A DNA stretch of 64,000 nt from Acidobacteriota bacterium (lineage in GTDB: Bacteria; Acidobacteriota; UBA6911). Both the position numbers and the translations under genes were made by a program. The notes under the pieces were generated by a model. That model worked only from the letters and a program-made list of their open reading frames with translations, searched no databases and was not told the DNA's origin. The stretch lies in assembly GCA_012719455.1 (NCBI GenBank), contig JAAYAJ010000065.1, positions 19,366 to 83,365 on the forward strand. Direction: 5' to 3'. Positions 4,992 through 12,633 of the stretch are shown here, one piece after another; position 1 is the first letter of the stretch; every line of letters starts with the position of its first letter.

Positions 4992-5966
4992 ATGTCCCGG
5001 AATTCCGATCCGTGTCATTCCCCGTTGCCGGTGCGCGCGTGCATCGTCGCGGCCCTTCTGGTCCTGCTCGCCTTCGCCGCAGGCTGCGCCCCCCGCCCCG
5101 CTGACGGGCCGGGAGAAGAGGGCGTGGGGATGACGACGGAACCGGGCATGGAACGGGTGGAGGTCACCGATGGGACCGGGCGGCGCGTCAGCCTCCCCCG
5201 GCGCCCACGGCGCATCATCTCGCTCGCGCCCAACGTCACCGAGACCCTCTTCATGCTCGGGGCCCAGGACCGCCTGATCGGGGTGACCACCCTGTGCACC
5301 TGGCCGGAAGCGGCACGCGCGCTCCCCAAGATCGGCGACCTCCTTAATCCCAACAACGAGGTGATCCTGGCCGCCCGGCCGGACCTCGTCATCGGTTCGA
5401 CAGCCGGGAACGACCGGGGGGCCATAACGAAGCTCATCGGCCTGGGGCTCCCGGTCTATGTCGACGCCCCCCGTTCGGTGGAGGACATCTTCCGCTCCGT
5501 GGAGGAGATCGGCCGCATCACCGATTGCGCCGGGGAGGGGGGCCTTCTGGCGGCGCGGATGAGAGAGCGGCTGGACAACGTCCGGCGCCGGATCGAGGGA
5601 CTCCCCCCGGTGCGCGCCTTTTTCATCACCTGGTTCAATCCGCTCCTGGCCCCGGGCAAAAACACCTTTGAAAACGACGTCCTGGCGCTGGCCGGCGTGG
5701 CTTCGATCTCCGCGGACATCCCGCAGTACTATCCGCGCTACAGCCTGGAACAGGTCCTGGTAAGCGACCCTGACGCCATCCTCACCATCGAACACGACGG
5801 GGACCCGCTGCCGCGCTTCGGCCGCACCCCCGGCTGGAAGGAGCTGCGCGCCGTCCGGGAGGGACGGGTCTATTACCTGAGCGAGTACCTGCAGCACCCC
5901 TCGCCTCTGTTCGTGGACGGCGTGGAGGACCTGGCGCGGCAGCTCTACCCGGAGAGGTTCCGATGA
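4992..5966 (+). CDS. btuF: Cobalamin ABC transporter substrate-binding protein
   Basis: Lipoprotein-like signal (VLLAFAAGCAPRP), PRRIISLAPNVTETLFMLGAQDRLIGVT; downstream of B12 riboswitch. Confidence 0.9.
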   Translation: MSRNSDPCHSPLPVRACIVAALLVLLAFAAGCAPRPADGPGEEGVGMTTEPGMERVEVTDGTGRRVSLPRRPRRIISLAPNVTETLFMLGAQDRLIGVTTLCTWPEAARALPKIGDLLNPNNEVILAARPDLVIGSTAGNDRGAITKLIGLGLPVYVDAPRSVEDIFRSVEEIGRITDCAGEGGLLAARMRERLDNVRRRIEGLPPVRAFFITWFNPLLAPGKNTFENDVLALAGVASISADIPQYYPRYSLEQVLVSDPDAILTIEHDGDPLPRFGRTPGWKELRAVREGRVYYLSEYLQHPSPLFVDGVEDLARQLYPERFR

Positions 5967-7012
5967 ACCGTCTATCAGGCGCCAGGATCGCGATGGTCAG
6001 CCTTGTCCTCGCCGGGGTCTGGGCCCTGGCGGTGATCCTGTCGCTCAACATCGGCAGCGTCCCGATCCCGGTCCGGACTTCGCTCGGCCTCCTGGCCGAC
6101 CGACTGGCGGGAGTTTCGAGCGGGGACCCCCTCGAGGCGGTCCTCTTCTCCGTCCGGCTCCCCCGGGTGCTTTTGGGATCGCTGGTGGGGGCCGCCCTGG
6201 CGGCGGCGGGGACCGCGTTCCAGTCGCTGCTGCGCAATCCCCTGGCCGACCCCTATGTCTTGGGGGTGTCCACGGGCGCCTCCCTGGGCACCATCATCTA
6301 CTCCATCGTCATCGCCGGAACCGGGTTCGCAACCATGGGCGGGGGCCTTGCCTTCGGCCGGCCGCTGGCCGCCTTTTTGGGGGCCGCTTTCACAGTCGGC
6401 GCAGTCTACCTGACCGCCAGCGGCGGCCGGAAGGCGGCCGACAACTCCCAGCGGCTGCTCCTGGCTGGCATAGTCCTGGCCTCCTTTCTCTCCTCCATCA
6501 ACGTGTTCCTGCTGACGAGCATCAACCAGGCGGACCTGCGCGGGATCTTCTACTGGCTCATCGGCGATCTCAGCCGGCAGGTGGACGCCTCCATCTACCC
6601 CGTGACGGCGCTGGTATTCGCGGGGGTCGGCATCCTCTACATCTTCTCCCACAGCCTGAACCTGATCGCCACGGGGGAGGAGGACGCCCTGATTCTGGGG
6701 GTGGAGGTGAAGCGGGTCAAGACCGCCGTCTACATCATCGCCTCCCTGATCACCGGGGCCGTGGTCTCCATCAGCGGCCCGATCGCCTACATCGGCCTCA
6801 TCTGCCCCCACATGGGGCGCATGCTCTTCGGCAGCGACAACCGCATCCTGATCCCCACCGTCTTCCTCTTCGGCGCGATCTTCACCCTGCTGGCCGACAC
6901 CCTGGCCCGGACCATCCTCTCCCCGGCCGAACTCCCGGTGGGGATCGTCACCGCGCTGTGCGGAGCCCCGCTCTTCATCTATCTCCTGCATCGCAAGGGG
7001 AGGGACAAATGA
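5963..7012 (+). CDS. btuC: Cobalamin/iron-siderophore ABC transporter permease (FecCD family)
   Basis: RLPRVLLGSLVGAALAAAGTAFQSLLRNPLADPYVLGVSTGASLG; overlaps btuF stop. Confidence 0.92.
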   Translation: MNRLSGARIAMVSLVLAGVWALAVILSLNIGSVPIPVRTSLGLLADRLAGVSSGDPLEAVLFSVRLPRVLLGSLVGAALAAAGTAFQSLLRNPLADPYVLGVSTGASLGTIIYSIVIAGTGFATMGGGLAFGRPLAAFLGAAFTVGAVYLTASGGRKAADNSQRLLLAGIVLASFLSSINVFLLTSINQADLRGIFYWLIGDLSRQVDASIYPVTALVFAGVGILYIFSHSLNLIATGEEDALILGVEVKRVKTAVYIIASLITGAVVSISGPIAYIGLICPHMGRMLFGSDNRILIPTVFLFGAIFTLLADTLARTILSPAELPVGIVTALCGAPLFIYLLHRKGRDK

Positions 7013-7818
7013 GCGGAGACTTCATCCTGGAGGCGCGCAACCTCGACTTCGATTACCGCAAGCCGATCGTGCGCGACATCTCCTTCGGCCTGCGCCCCGG
7101 GACCTTCACGGGCATCGTCGGGCCCAACGGCTGCGGCAAGACCACCGTCCTGCGGCTGCTCGACGGGATCATCCGGCCGCTCGCGGGGGAAGTGCTCGTC
7201 GACGGGGGACGCCCACTGTCGCGGATGAGGCGCAGGGAGATCGCGCGCCTCATCGCCATGGTCCCCCAGAACGGCGGGCTCGACCCGTACCAGACGGTGC
7301 TGCAGTTCGCCATGCTGGGGCGGGCGCCGTACCTGTCGCGGTTCGGATTCGAAAACCAAAAGGACGAGGCCGTCACCCTGGAGGCGCTGGAGATGACGCA
7401 GATGACGCGCTACCTCCACGCGCGCGTCACGGAGATCTCGGGAGGGGAAAAGCAGCGGCTGCTGCTCGCGCGCGCGCTGGCGCAGCGGACACCGATCCTG
7501 CTCCTGGACGAGGTCACGGCGAACCTGGACATCAACTACCAGGTCGAACTGATGCGCCTCGTACGACGCATCACCCGCGAGCAGAACCTCGCCACCCTGG
7601 TGGTGTCGCACGAAATCAACATACTGGGCGCCTTCTGCGACCGCATCATCCTGATGTCCGGCGGGAGGATCCGCTTCCAGGGGAGCGTCGGCGAAACGCT
7701 GACGCGGGAACATCTAAAACAAATCTTCGGCCTGGACTTTTCGATCCGCCGCCTGCCGGGCGCCGGGGTCGAGGTCCTCCCCGTCATTCACGAGGAAACA
7801 TCCCATGTATCGGAATAG
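7009..7818 (+). CDS. btuD: Cobalamin ABC transporter ATP-binding protein
   Basis: Walker A GPNGCGKTT, signature SGGEKQRLLLARAL, Walker B ILLLDEVTANLD; ATGA overlap with btuC. Confidence 0.92.
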   Translation: MSGDFILEARNLDFDYRKPIVRDISFGLRPGTFTGIVGPNGCGKTTVLRLLDGIIRPLAGEVLVDGGRPLSRMRRREIARLIAMVPQNGGLDPYQTVLQFAMLGRAPYLSRFGFENQKDEAVTLEALEMTQMTRYLHARVTEISGGEKQRLLLARALAQRTPILLLDEVTANLDINYQVELMRLVRRITREQNLATLVVSHEINILGAFCDRIILMSGGRIRFQGSVGETLTREHLKQIFGLDFSIRRLPGAGVEVLPVIHEETSHVSE

Positions 7819-10027
7819 ATTGCTCTTCATTTACATCCTGATCGCCCTGGCGCTGCCGGTTGCCACGCTGGCGGGAACCCTCACGGGCGTAGTCACCGAT
7901 CCCGAGGGGAAAGCCGTGCCCAACGCCCGGGTCCTCCTGCTCCGCTCCCTCGTCGTCGTCGGGGAGCGGCAGACGGACGTCGAGGGAGCCTACCGGTTCG
8001 AGGAGCTTCCCGACGGGAATTACCGGCTGACGGCCGAAGCCCCCGGGCTGGCCGCGGACCAGGTCGAGGCGGCCGTGACCGGCGGCGGAACCGAAACCAG
8101 GGACCTCCAGCTCAAGCTCAGCGCCATGACAACCCAGGTGGTGGTCTCTTCCAGCCTCGGGGGCGCGCTGATTCCCCAGGTCGGCGCCTCGGTCAGCCTG
8201 GTGACCGGAGAGGACCTGGAGGACCGGGCGGCGCAGAACGCCTATGAAAGCCTGCGCGGCATCCCCGGGGTCGAGGTCAACCAGAGCGGCCGCCGCGGCG
8301 GCGTGACCGGCGTGTTCATCCGCGGGGGGGAATCCAAGTACAACGCGGTGATGGTGGACGGCGTCGCGATGAACGATTTCGGGGGGGGAATGGACATGGC
8401 GTCCCTGCCGGCCGACGGGATCGAGCGCGTGGAGGTCACCCGCGGCCCCCAGAGCGCCCTGTACGGCTCCAACGCCGTCACGGGCGTCATCAATATCGTC
8501 AGCCGCCGCGGGGAGGGACCGCCTGAATTCACCGCCCTGGCCGAAGGGGGGAGCTACTCCACCCGCCGCTTCGCCACCGGCGGCAGCGGTCTCAGCCGCG
8601 GGTTCAGTTGGGCCTACAACCTCTCCCGGCTCGATTCCGACGGGGTGGTCGCCAACGACCGTTACCGCAACCAGAGCGCCTTCCTCAACCTGGGCTACCG
8701 GCATCGCAACCGGCGGCAGCTCGAATTCAGCTTTTTCGGCAACGCCAACGACGCCGGCGCCCCGGGCGCCTACGGCAGCGACCCCGGCGGAACCAACCCC
8801 GGCCACACGGTGGACACGATCTCGCGCGGGAAGCAGAACCTGTTCGGGTACCGGCTGGGCTACACCGAACAGTTCTCTTCCCGCGTGCGCCAGGTCACGA
8901 GCGCCAGCCTCACCACCAACGACCTGTCTTACATCTCCACCTGGGGCGATTACTTCGCCGAGCACCTGCGCGGCCTGTTCAACACCCGCACCGAGATCGC
9001 GCTCACGGACACGGCTTCCCTGGCGGCGGGTTTCGAGTTCAACCGGGAGCAGACGAAACACACCTACATCACCGACGAGCAGTTCGCCCCCTTCCTCCTG
9101 CCCCGCACCAGCCTGGCCTACTTCGCCGAAGCGCGCTACAGTCCGTCCGACCGGCTGCACCTGATCGGGGGGATACGCGTCGATCACCTGCGGACCGGCC
9201 GGATCCCGTCGGACGGCTGGACCCGTCCCGTCATCCCCGCCTCCACTGTGGTCCAGGCCAACCCGCGCCTGTCGGCCGCCTACATCGCCCGCGAGGACAG
9301 GGGGAGCGGCGCCTTCGGCTCCACGAGGATTCACGGAAGCTTCGGCACCGGGATCCGGCCGCCCGACGGGTTCGAACTCGCCTTCACCGACAACCCGGAG
9401 CTCAAGCCCGAGCGCAACATCAGCTTCGACGCCGGGGTGGAACAGACGCTCTTCGGTTCCAGGGCGATCGTGGACGTCACTTATTTCCTGAACCGGTTCC
9501 GGGACCAGATCGTCACCCTGGGCGGGTCGGTGGCCAACCTGAGCGAATACTCCTCGGACAACCTGAAAAATTCCCGCGCGCAGGGACTCGAGTTCACCCT
9601 GCGCCTGCGCCCGGTCCAGTCGCTCGAACTCACCGGGGCCTACACCTTCCTGGACACCGATATCCTGGCCCTGGACGGGAGCTCGGAGGCCAACGCCCCC
9701 TACTCCGTGGGACAGTGGCTGCTCCGCCGCCCGCGCCACTCCGGGAGCTACGGCGTCACCTGGAATCACCGGCGCCTGACGCTGAACACCACCGCCTACA
9801 TCCGCGGGGAAACGCTCGACGTGGAACCCGCCTTCGGGCAGCCCTTTTTCACCAATCCCGGCTATGTGCGGGCCGACGCGGGCTTCGCCTACCGCCTCTC
9901 CCGGGGAGTGGAGATCTACGGCAGGATTAACAACCTGCTGAACCGGAAGTACGAGGAAACCCTGGGCTATCCCGCCCTGCGGCTGAATTTCATGGCGGGC
10001 ATGAGGTTCAGGTTCCCGTCGGAGTAG
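7805..10027 (+). CDS. btuB: TonB-dependent receptor with N-terminal carboxypeptidase-regulatory-like domain, probable BtuB
   Basis: Signal peptide, GTLTGVVTDPEGKAVPNARV domain, plug domain (LRGIPGVEVNQSGRRGGVTGVFIRGGESKYNAVMVDGV), beta-barrel, C-terminal F-rich end; in B12 operon. Confidence 0.88.
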   Translation: MYRNRLLFIYILIALALPVATLAGTLTGVVTDPEGKAVPNARVLLLRSLVVVGERQTDVEGAYRFEELPDGNYRLTAEAPGLAADQVEAAVTGGGTETRDLQLKLSAMTTQVVVSSSLGGALIPQVGASVSLVTGEDLEDRAAQNAYESLRGIPGVEVNQSGRRGGVTGVFIRGGESKYNAVMVDGVAMNDFGGGMDMASLPADGIERVEVTRGPQSALYGSNAVTGVINIVSRRGEGPPEFTALAEGGSYSTRRFATGGSGLSRGFSWAYNLSRLDSDGVVANDRYRNQSAFLNLGYRHRNRRQLEFSFFGNANDAGAPGAYGSDPGGTNPGHTVDTISRGKQNLFGYRLGYTEQFSSRVRQVTSASLTTNDLSYISTWGDYFAEHLRGLFNTRTEIALTDTASLAAGFEFNREQTKHTYITDEQFAPFLLPRTSLAYFAEARYSPSDRLHLIGGIRVDHLRTGRIPSDGWTRPVIPASTVVQANPRLSAAYIAREDRGSGAFGSTRIHGSFGTGIRPPDGFELAFTDNPELKPERNISFDAGVEQTLFGSRAIVDVTYFLNRFRDQIVTLGGSVANLSEYSSDNLKNSRAQGLEFTLRLRPVQSLELTGAYTFLDTDILALDGSSEANAPYSVGQWLLRRPRHSGSYGVTWNHRRLTLNTTAYIRGETLDVEPAFGQPFFTNPGYVRADAGFAYRLSRGVEIYGRINNLLNRKYEETLGYPALRLNFMAGMRFRFPSE

Positions 10028-11246: not shown

Positions 11247-11264
11247 GCAAGCGTGCAATGATCC
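11247..11264 (+). repeat. Left copy of 18-nt direct repeat flanking folP
   Basis: gcaagcgtgcaatgatcc; 17/18 identical to 12421-12438. Confidence 0.85.
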
Positions 11265-11366
11265 AGCCTTAAACAGGCCGATTTTCCGTCCTACCTGATG
11301 GGGAGCGCCTCACGGCTGCATTCCCGCACCTTCTTGAACAATCTTGAAAGGTGTCCCGATCTTCAC

Positions 11367-12347
11367 TCACCTTTTCTTCGCTTCGTACTGCTTCAGATGG
11401 ACATCTTCGATCTTGGCGGCAGTCCGCACGGCATGGCCGATCTTTGCATGCATCTTGTGCCCGGCGATCATGTGGATTCTGACGACATCGGCCCCCAACG
11501 CGGTCGCAATCGCCGTGAGCGCGGCCGAGCCTTCGTCCCGATTCTTATGACCTTCTTCCGTTTCCGGATCCAGGTTGAAACCGGCGTCCTCCAGGATGTT
11601 AACCACAAAGCGCTTTCTGGATACGCCTACAAAGCTAAGGCAACCCATCTGATTTAAAACGTGGAGATCTCGGATCAACAGGAGATTTTCCTTCTTCGTC
11701 AAGCCGAACCCGATACCCGGGTCCAGCATAATGCGCTCGGCTTCAATCCCGGCCTCGCGAGCAATCCGGATGCAGCGCTTCAAATAGAAGACCATGGCAT
11801 CTTGTATGTCCATGGCTTCCATCTTCTTGATCTCTTCCCCGCTAAAGGCCGTTGCTCCGCCAAAAGAAGGAAAGATCCTGGAGCCGGGATGATCGGGCCT
11901 GGCGATGACGGGATTGAACATCAGGACGGCTCCCGCTTTGGACGCTCCAACGACCCCCGCCATGTCGGGATCGCCCAAAAAGCCCGTAATATCATTAACG
12001 ATGTCCGCTCCCGCCTCAATAACCGCCCTGGCCACCGGAGCCTTCCATGTGTCCACCGACAGGGGCACGTCCGTGCGCTTTTTTAATTCACGGATGACCG
12101 GCGTGATGCGGCCAATCTCCTCTTGAACCTCAACCGGCGTGCTGCCCGGCCTGGTGGATTCGCCGCCGATGTCCAGCATCCCCGCCCCTTGCGCAACGAG
12201 ATCCATTGCCCGGGCTACAGCCTTGTCCGTGGAAAACCAACGTCCGCCGTCCGAAAAGGAATCCGGCGTGACATTGACGATGCCGCAAAGGATGGCTCCC
12301 CTGTCGCCGACAATCGTTTTATCGTTGCATTTGAATATTCTGTTCAT
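11367..12347 (-). CDS. folP: Dihydropteroate synthase
   Basis: GIVNVTPDSFSDGG, GAGMLDIGGESTRPG, DVPLSVDTWKAPVARAVIEAGADIVNDITG, LDPGIGFGLTKKENL, GVSRKRFV. Lower GC than its surroundings. Confidence 0.93.
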   Translation of the reverse strand: MNRIFKCNDKTIVGDRGAILCGIVNVTPDSFSDGGRWFSTDKAVARAMDLVAQGAGMLDIGGESTRPGSTPVEVQEEIGRITPVIRELKKRTDVPLSVDTWKAPVARAVIEAGADIVNDITGFLGDPDMAGVVGASKAGAVLMFNPVIARPDHPGSRIFPSFGGATAFSGEEIKKMEAMDIQDAMVFYLKRCIRIAREAGIEAERIMLDPGIGFGLTKKENLLLIRDLHVLNQMGCLSFVGVSRKRFVVNILEDAGFNLDPETEEGHKNRDEGSAALTAIATALGADVVRIHMIAGHKMHAKIGHAVRTAAKIEDVHLKQYEAKKR

Positions 12348-12420
12348 TCTTTGTCCCTATACGGGTTGCTTTGACTTCCCAGCCGACCAGGCGGCGTCCT
12401 TGACGATGGGGTATTGTAAC

Positions 12421-12438
12421 GCAAGCGTGCAAGGATCC
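12421..12438 (+). repeat. Right copy of 18-nt direct repeat flanking folP
   Basis: gcaagcgtgcaaggatcc. Confidence 0.85.
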
Positions 12439-12633
12439 CCACATCCCCAAGGGCCCGGCGGCGGCCCGTTGAAGCCTTCAAAGAGCGGCCCGACAAGACC
12501 GTCCGGCGCCGGGACGGCGAAAGTGAAGCCGCCGCAACCATCCCGTGTGGAAAAAACGACGACTACCCTGTTAAGATAGAGCGGCACCCGGGCACGCCCG
12601 AGGGAGGAACCGTTCGTTCAAAGGAGTCCGCGC

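Follow-up and report, generated by a model that had tools for sequence, protein, structure and literature searches.

The window analysed here, 64,000 nucleotides of DNA from an Acidobacteriota MAG (G000; 97.4% complete, 107 contigs, of which C3, C25, C29, C65 and C74 are named below), contains two 18-bp repeats in direct orientation (GCAAGCGTGCAATGATCC and GCAAGCGTGCAAGGATCC; Table 1) that agree at 17 of 18 positions. As the first-pass annotation had described, folP is the sole gene between them. With up to three mismatches allowed, the 18-mer consensus occurs twice in the window against 0.13 copies expected, a count reached in 1 of 100 shuffles. A search of the host genome returned the two window copies, one copy on C29 with one mismatch, one on C74 with two, and otherwise matches with three mismatches, so the 18-mer is no widespread motif scattered through this genome.

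The folP product scores as a dihydropteroate synthase (DHPS; TIGR01496, 240.5 bits against a cut-off of 162.6; PF00809, 236.6 bits) and carries the DHPS motifs NVTPDSFSDGG, LDPGIGFG and SRK. Its gene is poor in GC, as first reported, with 56.6% compared with 66.3% for the window, a value as low in only 0.3% of 981-bp windows, all overlapping the segment, and with a GC3 of 0.69 compared with 0.87–0.90 in the nearby pgsA, DUF512 and lysS genes. Judged from translations only, window positions 4992–10027 hold an apparent vitamin B12/iron-type uptake cluster comprising a periplasmic binding protein, a permease, an ATPase and a TonB-dependent receptor.

An insertion with IS66 ends

Two genomes of the same genus as the host, G004 and G006 (DUF512 protein 85% identical), align to the window on both flanks at 87–89% DNA identity and skip one block. 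The two BLAST pieces meet at the empty site (9-bp overlap in G006, 2-bp overlap in G004), where a single 8-mer, CCTG(C/A)TAA, runs into GATAGG (CCTGATAA in G004, CCTGCTAA in G006). In the window, the left edge reads CCCGCCAA followed by GCAAGCG, and on the right GACGACTAC is followed by CCTGTTAA and GATAGAG. The 8-mer is therefore present once in the empty sites and twice, in decayed form, around the element, as an 8-bp target-site duplication (TSD) whose copies share 5/8 positions with each other, and 6/8 (left) and 7/8 (right) with the empty site of G006. This duplication points to insertion by transposition, and its length is that reported for the IS66 elements ISPpa5a and ISPpa7 (PMC3281130). 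Two further genomes, G009 and G003, also lack the block, their flanking pieces lying ~0.2 kb apart compared with ~1.45 kb in the window, and the arrangement is missing from relatives without this folP. Of the segment originally delimited, 11247–12438, the left edge stands and the right edge does not, as the insertion runs 128 bp further.

Table 1 Features of the inserted element and its edges, in window coordinates
Feature	Position	Strand	Basis
Left TSD copy, 8 bp, decayed, CCCGCCAA	11239–11246		Aligns to the single empty-site CCTGCTAA (G006) / CCTGATAA (G004)
Whole inserted element, 1320 bp	11247–12566		G004 and G006 lack it; their sequence is continuous here
Outer IS66-type left terminal repeat IRL1, GCAAGCGTGCAATGATCC	11247–11264	+	17/18 to C29:7619–7636, GTAAGCGTGCAATGATCC
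102-bp spacer downstream of folP, geneless, 54% GC	11265–11366		Gene map, composition
Passenger gene folP, for a 326-aa dihydropteroate synthase of Streptococcus/Lentisphaeria type	11367–12347	-	TIGR01496, PF00809, identity, tree
73-bp spacer upstream of folP	12348–12420		No sigma-70-type promoter match
Internal IS66 left terminal repeat IRL2, GCAAGCGTGCAAGGATCC	12421–12438	+	Repeat match
IS66 left end and subterminal sequence	12423–12458	+	89% over 36 bp to C29:7621–7656
Remnant of IS66 tnpA-region coding sequence	12457–12504	+	84% to C29:7732–7781
Remnant of IS66 tnpC 3' end with outer right terminal repeat (inward: GTAGTCGTCG...CCACACGGGATGG)	12519–12566	+	~81–84% to C29:8363–8410
Right TSD copy, 8 bp, CCTGTTAA	12567–12574		7/8 to G006 CCTGCTAA

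The 18-mers had been taken for a target duplication or a site-specific recombination site, and both possibilities were ruled out. The C29 copy, which has the canonical IS66 left end, opens a 792-bp element (C29:7619–8410) that closes with an inverted GTAAGCG repeat (the end of C29:8363–8410 reads GTAAGCGTCAATTCTTGCACACGGGATGG) and whose open reading frame matches the IS66 transposase families PF03050 and PF13817. GTAAGCG termini have been published for IS66 elements such as ISPsko1 and ISPa75 (PMC12888890). Because the C29 copy opens an element with IS66 transposase sequence and such termini are known from this family, the 18-mer is identified as an IS66 left end; on sequence grounds, both window copies represent the left terminal repeat of an element of the IS66 family, and the real TSD is the 8-bp one around the whole block. 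The sequence that follows the C29 18-mer, CCACATTCCCAAGG, also continues the right window copy (CCACATCCCCAAGG). The right end of the window element matches IS66 right ends on C29, C3 and C65, three contigs on which IS66 transposase sequence is present. Its terminal repeat (IRR) is degraded, with GTAGTC in place of GTAAGC, and its homologues on C29 and C3 are intact GTAAGCG ends. The C29 element (locus L071) is itself an IS66 deletion derivative with both ends, in which a tnpA-like N-terminal sequence is fused to the C terminus of tnpC; its edges show no target duplication.

With a left end, a tnpA-region fragment and a tnpC tail following one another within 12421–12566, the second 18-mer starts an internal IS66 deletion derivative. 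The segment had been described as free of transposase; the true insertion contains transposase debris in this interval. Intact tnpA, tnpB and tnpC are lacking and only fragments of ~50 bp are left, so we regard the element as a non-autonomous derivative and not as an insertion sequence, with one non-transposition gene, folP, between its outer ends. The divergence of the TSD copies, the degraded right end and a folP GC content (~57%) that falls between those of the Lentisphaeria gene (49%, locus L081) and the host (66%) indicate that the insertion is old and that this inactive, IS66-derived element is probably immobile now.

A foreign folP and the loss of the native gene

Phylogenetic analysis places the window DHPS outside the lineage of its host, in agreement with the original proposal that folP was acquired horizontally within a small mobile segment. 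In a maximum-likelihood tree it groups with proteins from Lentisphaeria (support 100/98) and Streptococcus (99/92), far from a clade of ten native folP products of the same family as the host (100/99). A protein of this type was found in 1 of 396 genomes of the phylum and in none of the other 395 sampled. The closest match among solved structures is the Streptococcus pneumoniae enzyme (PDB 2VEF; E 1.1e-111, nearly full length), with which it shares the FNPV-ARP-HP-S-IFP loop and a long C terminus, and the initial impression of a Firmicutes-type DHPS is thus borne out. Whereas the S. massiliensis protein is 53% identical to it, its nearest kin are Lentisphaeria proteins at 73–76% identity, present in 4 of the 199 genomes of that class (best 76%, UBA1407). 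The same folP on plasmids was ruled out, the best matches there being below 60% identity. Relative to the Lentisphaeria gene, dN/dS is ~0.11 with dS at ~1.55, which is near saturation, so that the ratio reflects long-term constraint and not specifically selection after the transfer. No consensus sigma-70-type promoter was matched in the 73 bp upstream of the gene.

The Streptococcus-type genes of Lentisphaeria (loci L081 and L114–L116) are possibly themselves a transfer from Bacillota; in L081 the gene lies away from ftsH and cdaA. In the stretches compared around the Lentisphaeria genes, the window element is matched by folP alone, and the C29 IS66 element has no match. Across the 199 genomes of the class, no matching IS66 left end was found beyond scattered matches with two mismatches, while a left end of the window subtype is present in the host relative G006. 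A Lentisphaeria donor of the IS66 sequence was ruled out on these grounds, and the IS66 component appears to belong to the host's own lineage.

All 31 native folP loci surveyed in relatives adjoin ftsH and/or cdaA, 27 of them both, and contig ends truncate three of the remaining four loci. G006 has the order tilS-ftsH-folP-cdaA, which G004 shares from ftsH onwards, and both retain an intact native folP. The host genome keeps ftsH and cdaA on C25 at 82–88% identity, and all that is left of folP between them is roughly the first 26 codons, fused to the last few (MPEPCSRRTVTLELGKRTPAMGILDVLHADDVTDA...), a 66-aa open frame without the catalytic core (C25:435–635; loci L117/L097). The element had been thought to bring in a second folP. 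No second folP was found in this genome: besides the stub, its two other PF00809 proteins are methyltetrahydrofolate:corrinoid methyltransferases, and the element gene is the only DHPS found in this 97.4%-complete assembly of 107 contigs, in which a gap could hide another. As folK is retained, the pathway still needs a DHPS, and to judge from the assembly the element folP is the only one found for it. With a foreign gene as sole DHPS found and a native copy reduced to a stub, the locus is best described as an IS66-borne xenologous replacement.

Routes of assembly and alternative readings

We consider it very likely, with a probability of about 0.86, that at positions 11247–12566 a non-autonomous transposon derived from IS66, with a foreign folP as its passenger, inserted long ago and that the native folP was lost afterwards. 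The outer ends (left at 11247, right at 12566) are oriented as used by the IS66 transposase TnpC, which another copy of IS66 would have provided in trans. The internal left repeat and the transposase debris next to it indicate that IS66 parts went into the building of the unit, which may have been a composite whose left copy became reduced, or may have arisen when folP was captured next to a left end. A further route to the double left end would be integration at the 18-mer once an IS66 was already in place. Once expressed, the imported gene would have supplied a working dihydropteroate synthase and made the native folP redundant, and the latter would then have been lost by internal deletion between ftsH and cdaA, gain presumably preceding loss. 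The same folP-IS66 structure was not found elsewhere, so the case for transposition of the complete unit is made by the outer ends and the TSD.

How the unit arose can be read in several ways. That two direct IS66 derivatives once flanked folP, the left one being later deleted down to its terminal repeat, is a serious candidate with somewhat less than even odds. The correctly oriented IRL1 and IRR bear the TSD and the internal copy can be recognised as a deletion derivative of IS66, yet only an 18-bp end is left of the left copy, so that a deletion would need to have stopped exactly at the repeat, and IRL1 lacks the subterminal CCCACATTCCCAAGG found after the left ends on C29 and in G006. It is rather unlikely that an IS66 deletion derivative with both ends inserted first, creating the TSD, and that folP DNA with a left end then integrated at the left end through the 18-bp repeat, by homologous or TnpC-driven recombination, duplicating the repeat, in which case IRL1-folP-IRR never moved as a unit. 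A Campbell-type integration would leave folP exactly framed by direct copies of one repeat, as is seen. Both window left ends also start with GCAAGCG, where other copies of the subtype start with GTAAGCG; this unusual start hints that one derives from the other, and two GC-ward mutations might also produce it. On the other hand, 18 bp offers little length for homologous recombination, a donor, circular or otherwise, was not seen, and a single insertion of an assembled unit gives the same layout.

Two further readings concern folP itself. A chance or regulatory repeat around a vertically inherited folP of odd composition would accord with the shortness of the repeat and nothing else, and it is refuted by the foreign phylogeny together with the empty site, the TSD and the homology of both ends to IS66. 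A Sul-like sulfonamide-resistance gene selected by drug is very improbable. A DHPS on a transposon does recall sul1–4, and the protein has a weak similarity to the Sul4 profile (169.6 bits), but against a cut-off of 600, and it scores far under the cut-offs of all Sul models. A Phe-Gly insertion is needed for Sul-type resistance (PMC10328974). This hallmark of Sul1–3, located in the pABA-site helix, is missing from the window protein, which reads LDPGIGFGLT with no insertion relative to the native DHPS. The age of the insertion, with decayed TSD and ends and partly ameliorated GC, also speaks against drug selection, and the carrier differs from that of sul1–sul3. Drug resistance is therefore not indicated: the suggestion that the acquired gene could alter drug sensitivity finds no support in the sequence, which gives no ground for calling it a resistance gene.

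Relation to known elements

IS66-family insertion sequences with passenger genes are already known as tIS66, for example ISPa75-fosZ (PMC12888890). The window element resembles it in ends of the GTAAGCG type, a passenger inside the ends and a target duplication (PMC12888890), but it lacks intact tnpA, tnpB and tnpC, its passenger lies between two left ends and not between tnpC and the right end, and its cargo is a housekeeping enzyme replacing the host's own gene. With the classical elements ISPpa5a and ISPpa7 it shares the 8-bp duplication and a related origin of the transposase genes (PMC3281130); it differs in being a non-autonomous unit of 1320 bp with transposase-gene fragments only. In titles and abstracts of the openly searchable literature, we recognised no report that combines IS66 with folP, nor one of folP cargo with replacement of the native gene.

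When foreign homologues replace core metabolic genes, the event is usually deduced from phylogeny and nothing else. In this genome and its close relatives one can see the vehicle (IS66 ends and TSD) as well as the empty site, the imported gene and the scar that marks the lost native gene. Insertion-sequence cargo is thus not limited to accessory or resistance genes: a folate gene that is normally needed is now supplied, as far as found in this genome, only by transposon cargo. The locus is therefore a concrete case in which to test how the dependence of a housekeeping gene on a transposon copy arises. We suggest, as a doubtful generalization, that in this group of IS66 elements chromosomal genes might be caught between two left ends in direct repeat, a general route by which small transposons could bring housekeeping genes from one phylum into another and displace essential genes of the host. 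A comparable double left end exists in G006 (C51:58771–58880; locus L107), where two IS66 left ends of the same subtype lie in direct orientation 92 bp apart, amid debris of IS66 and an aldehyde dehydrogenase gene, in a layout like that around folP.
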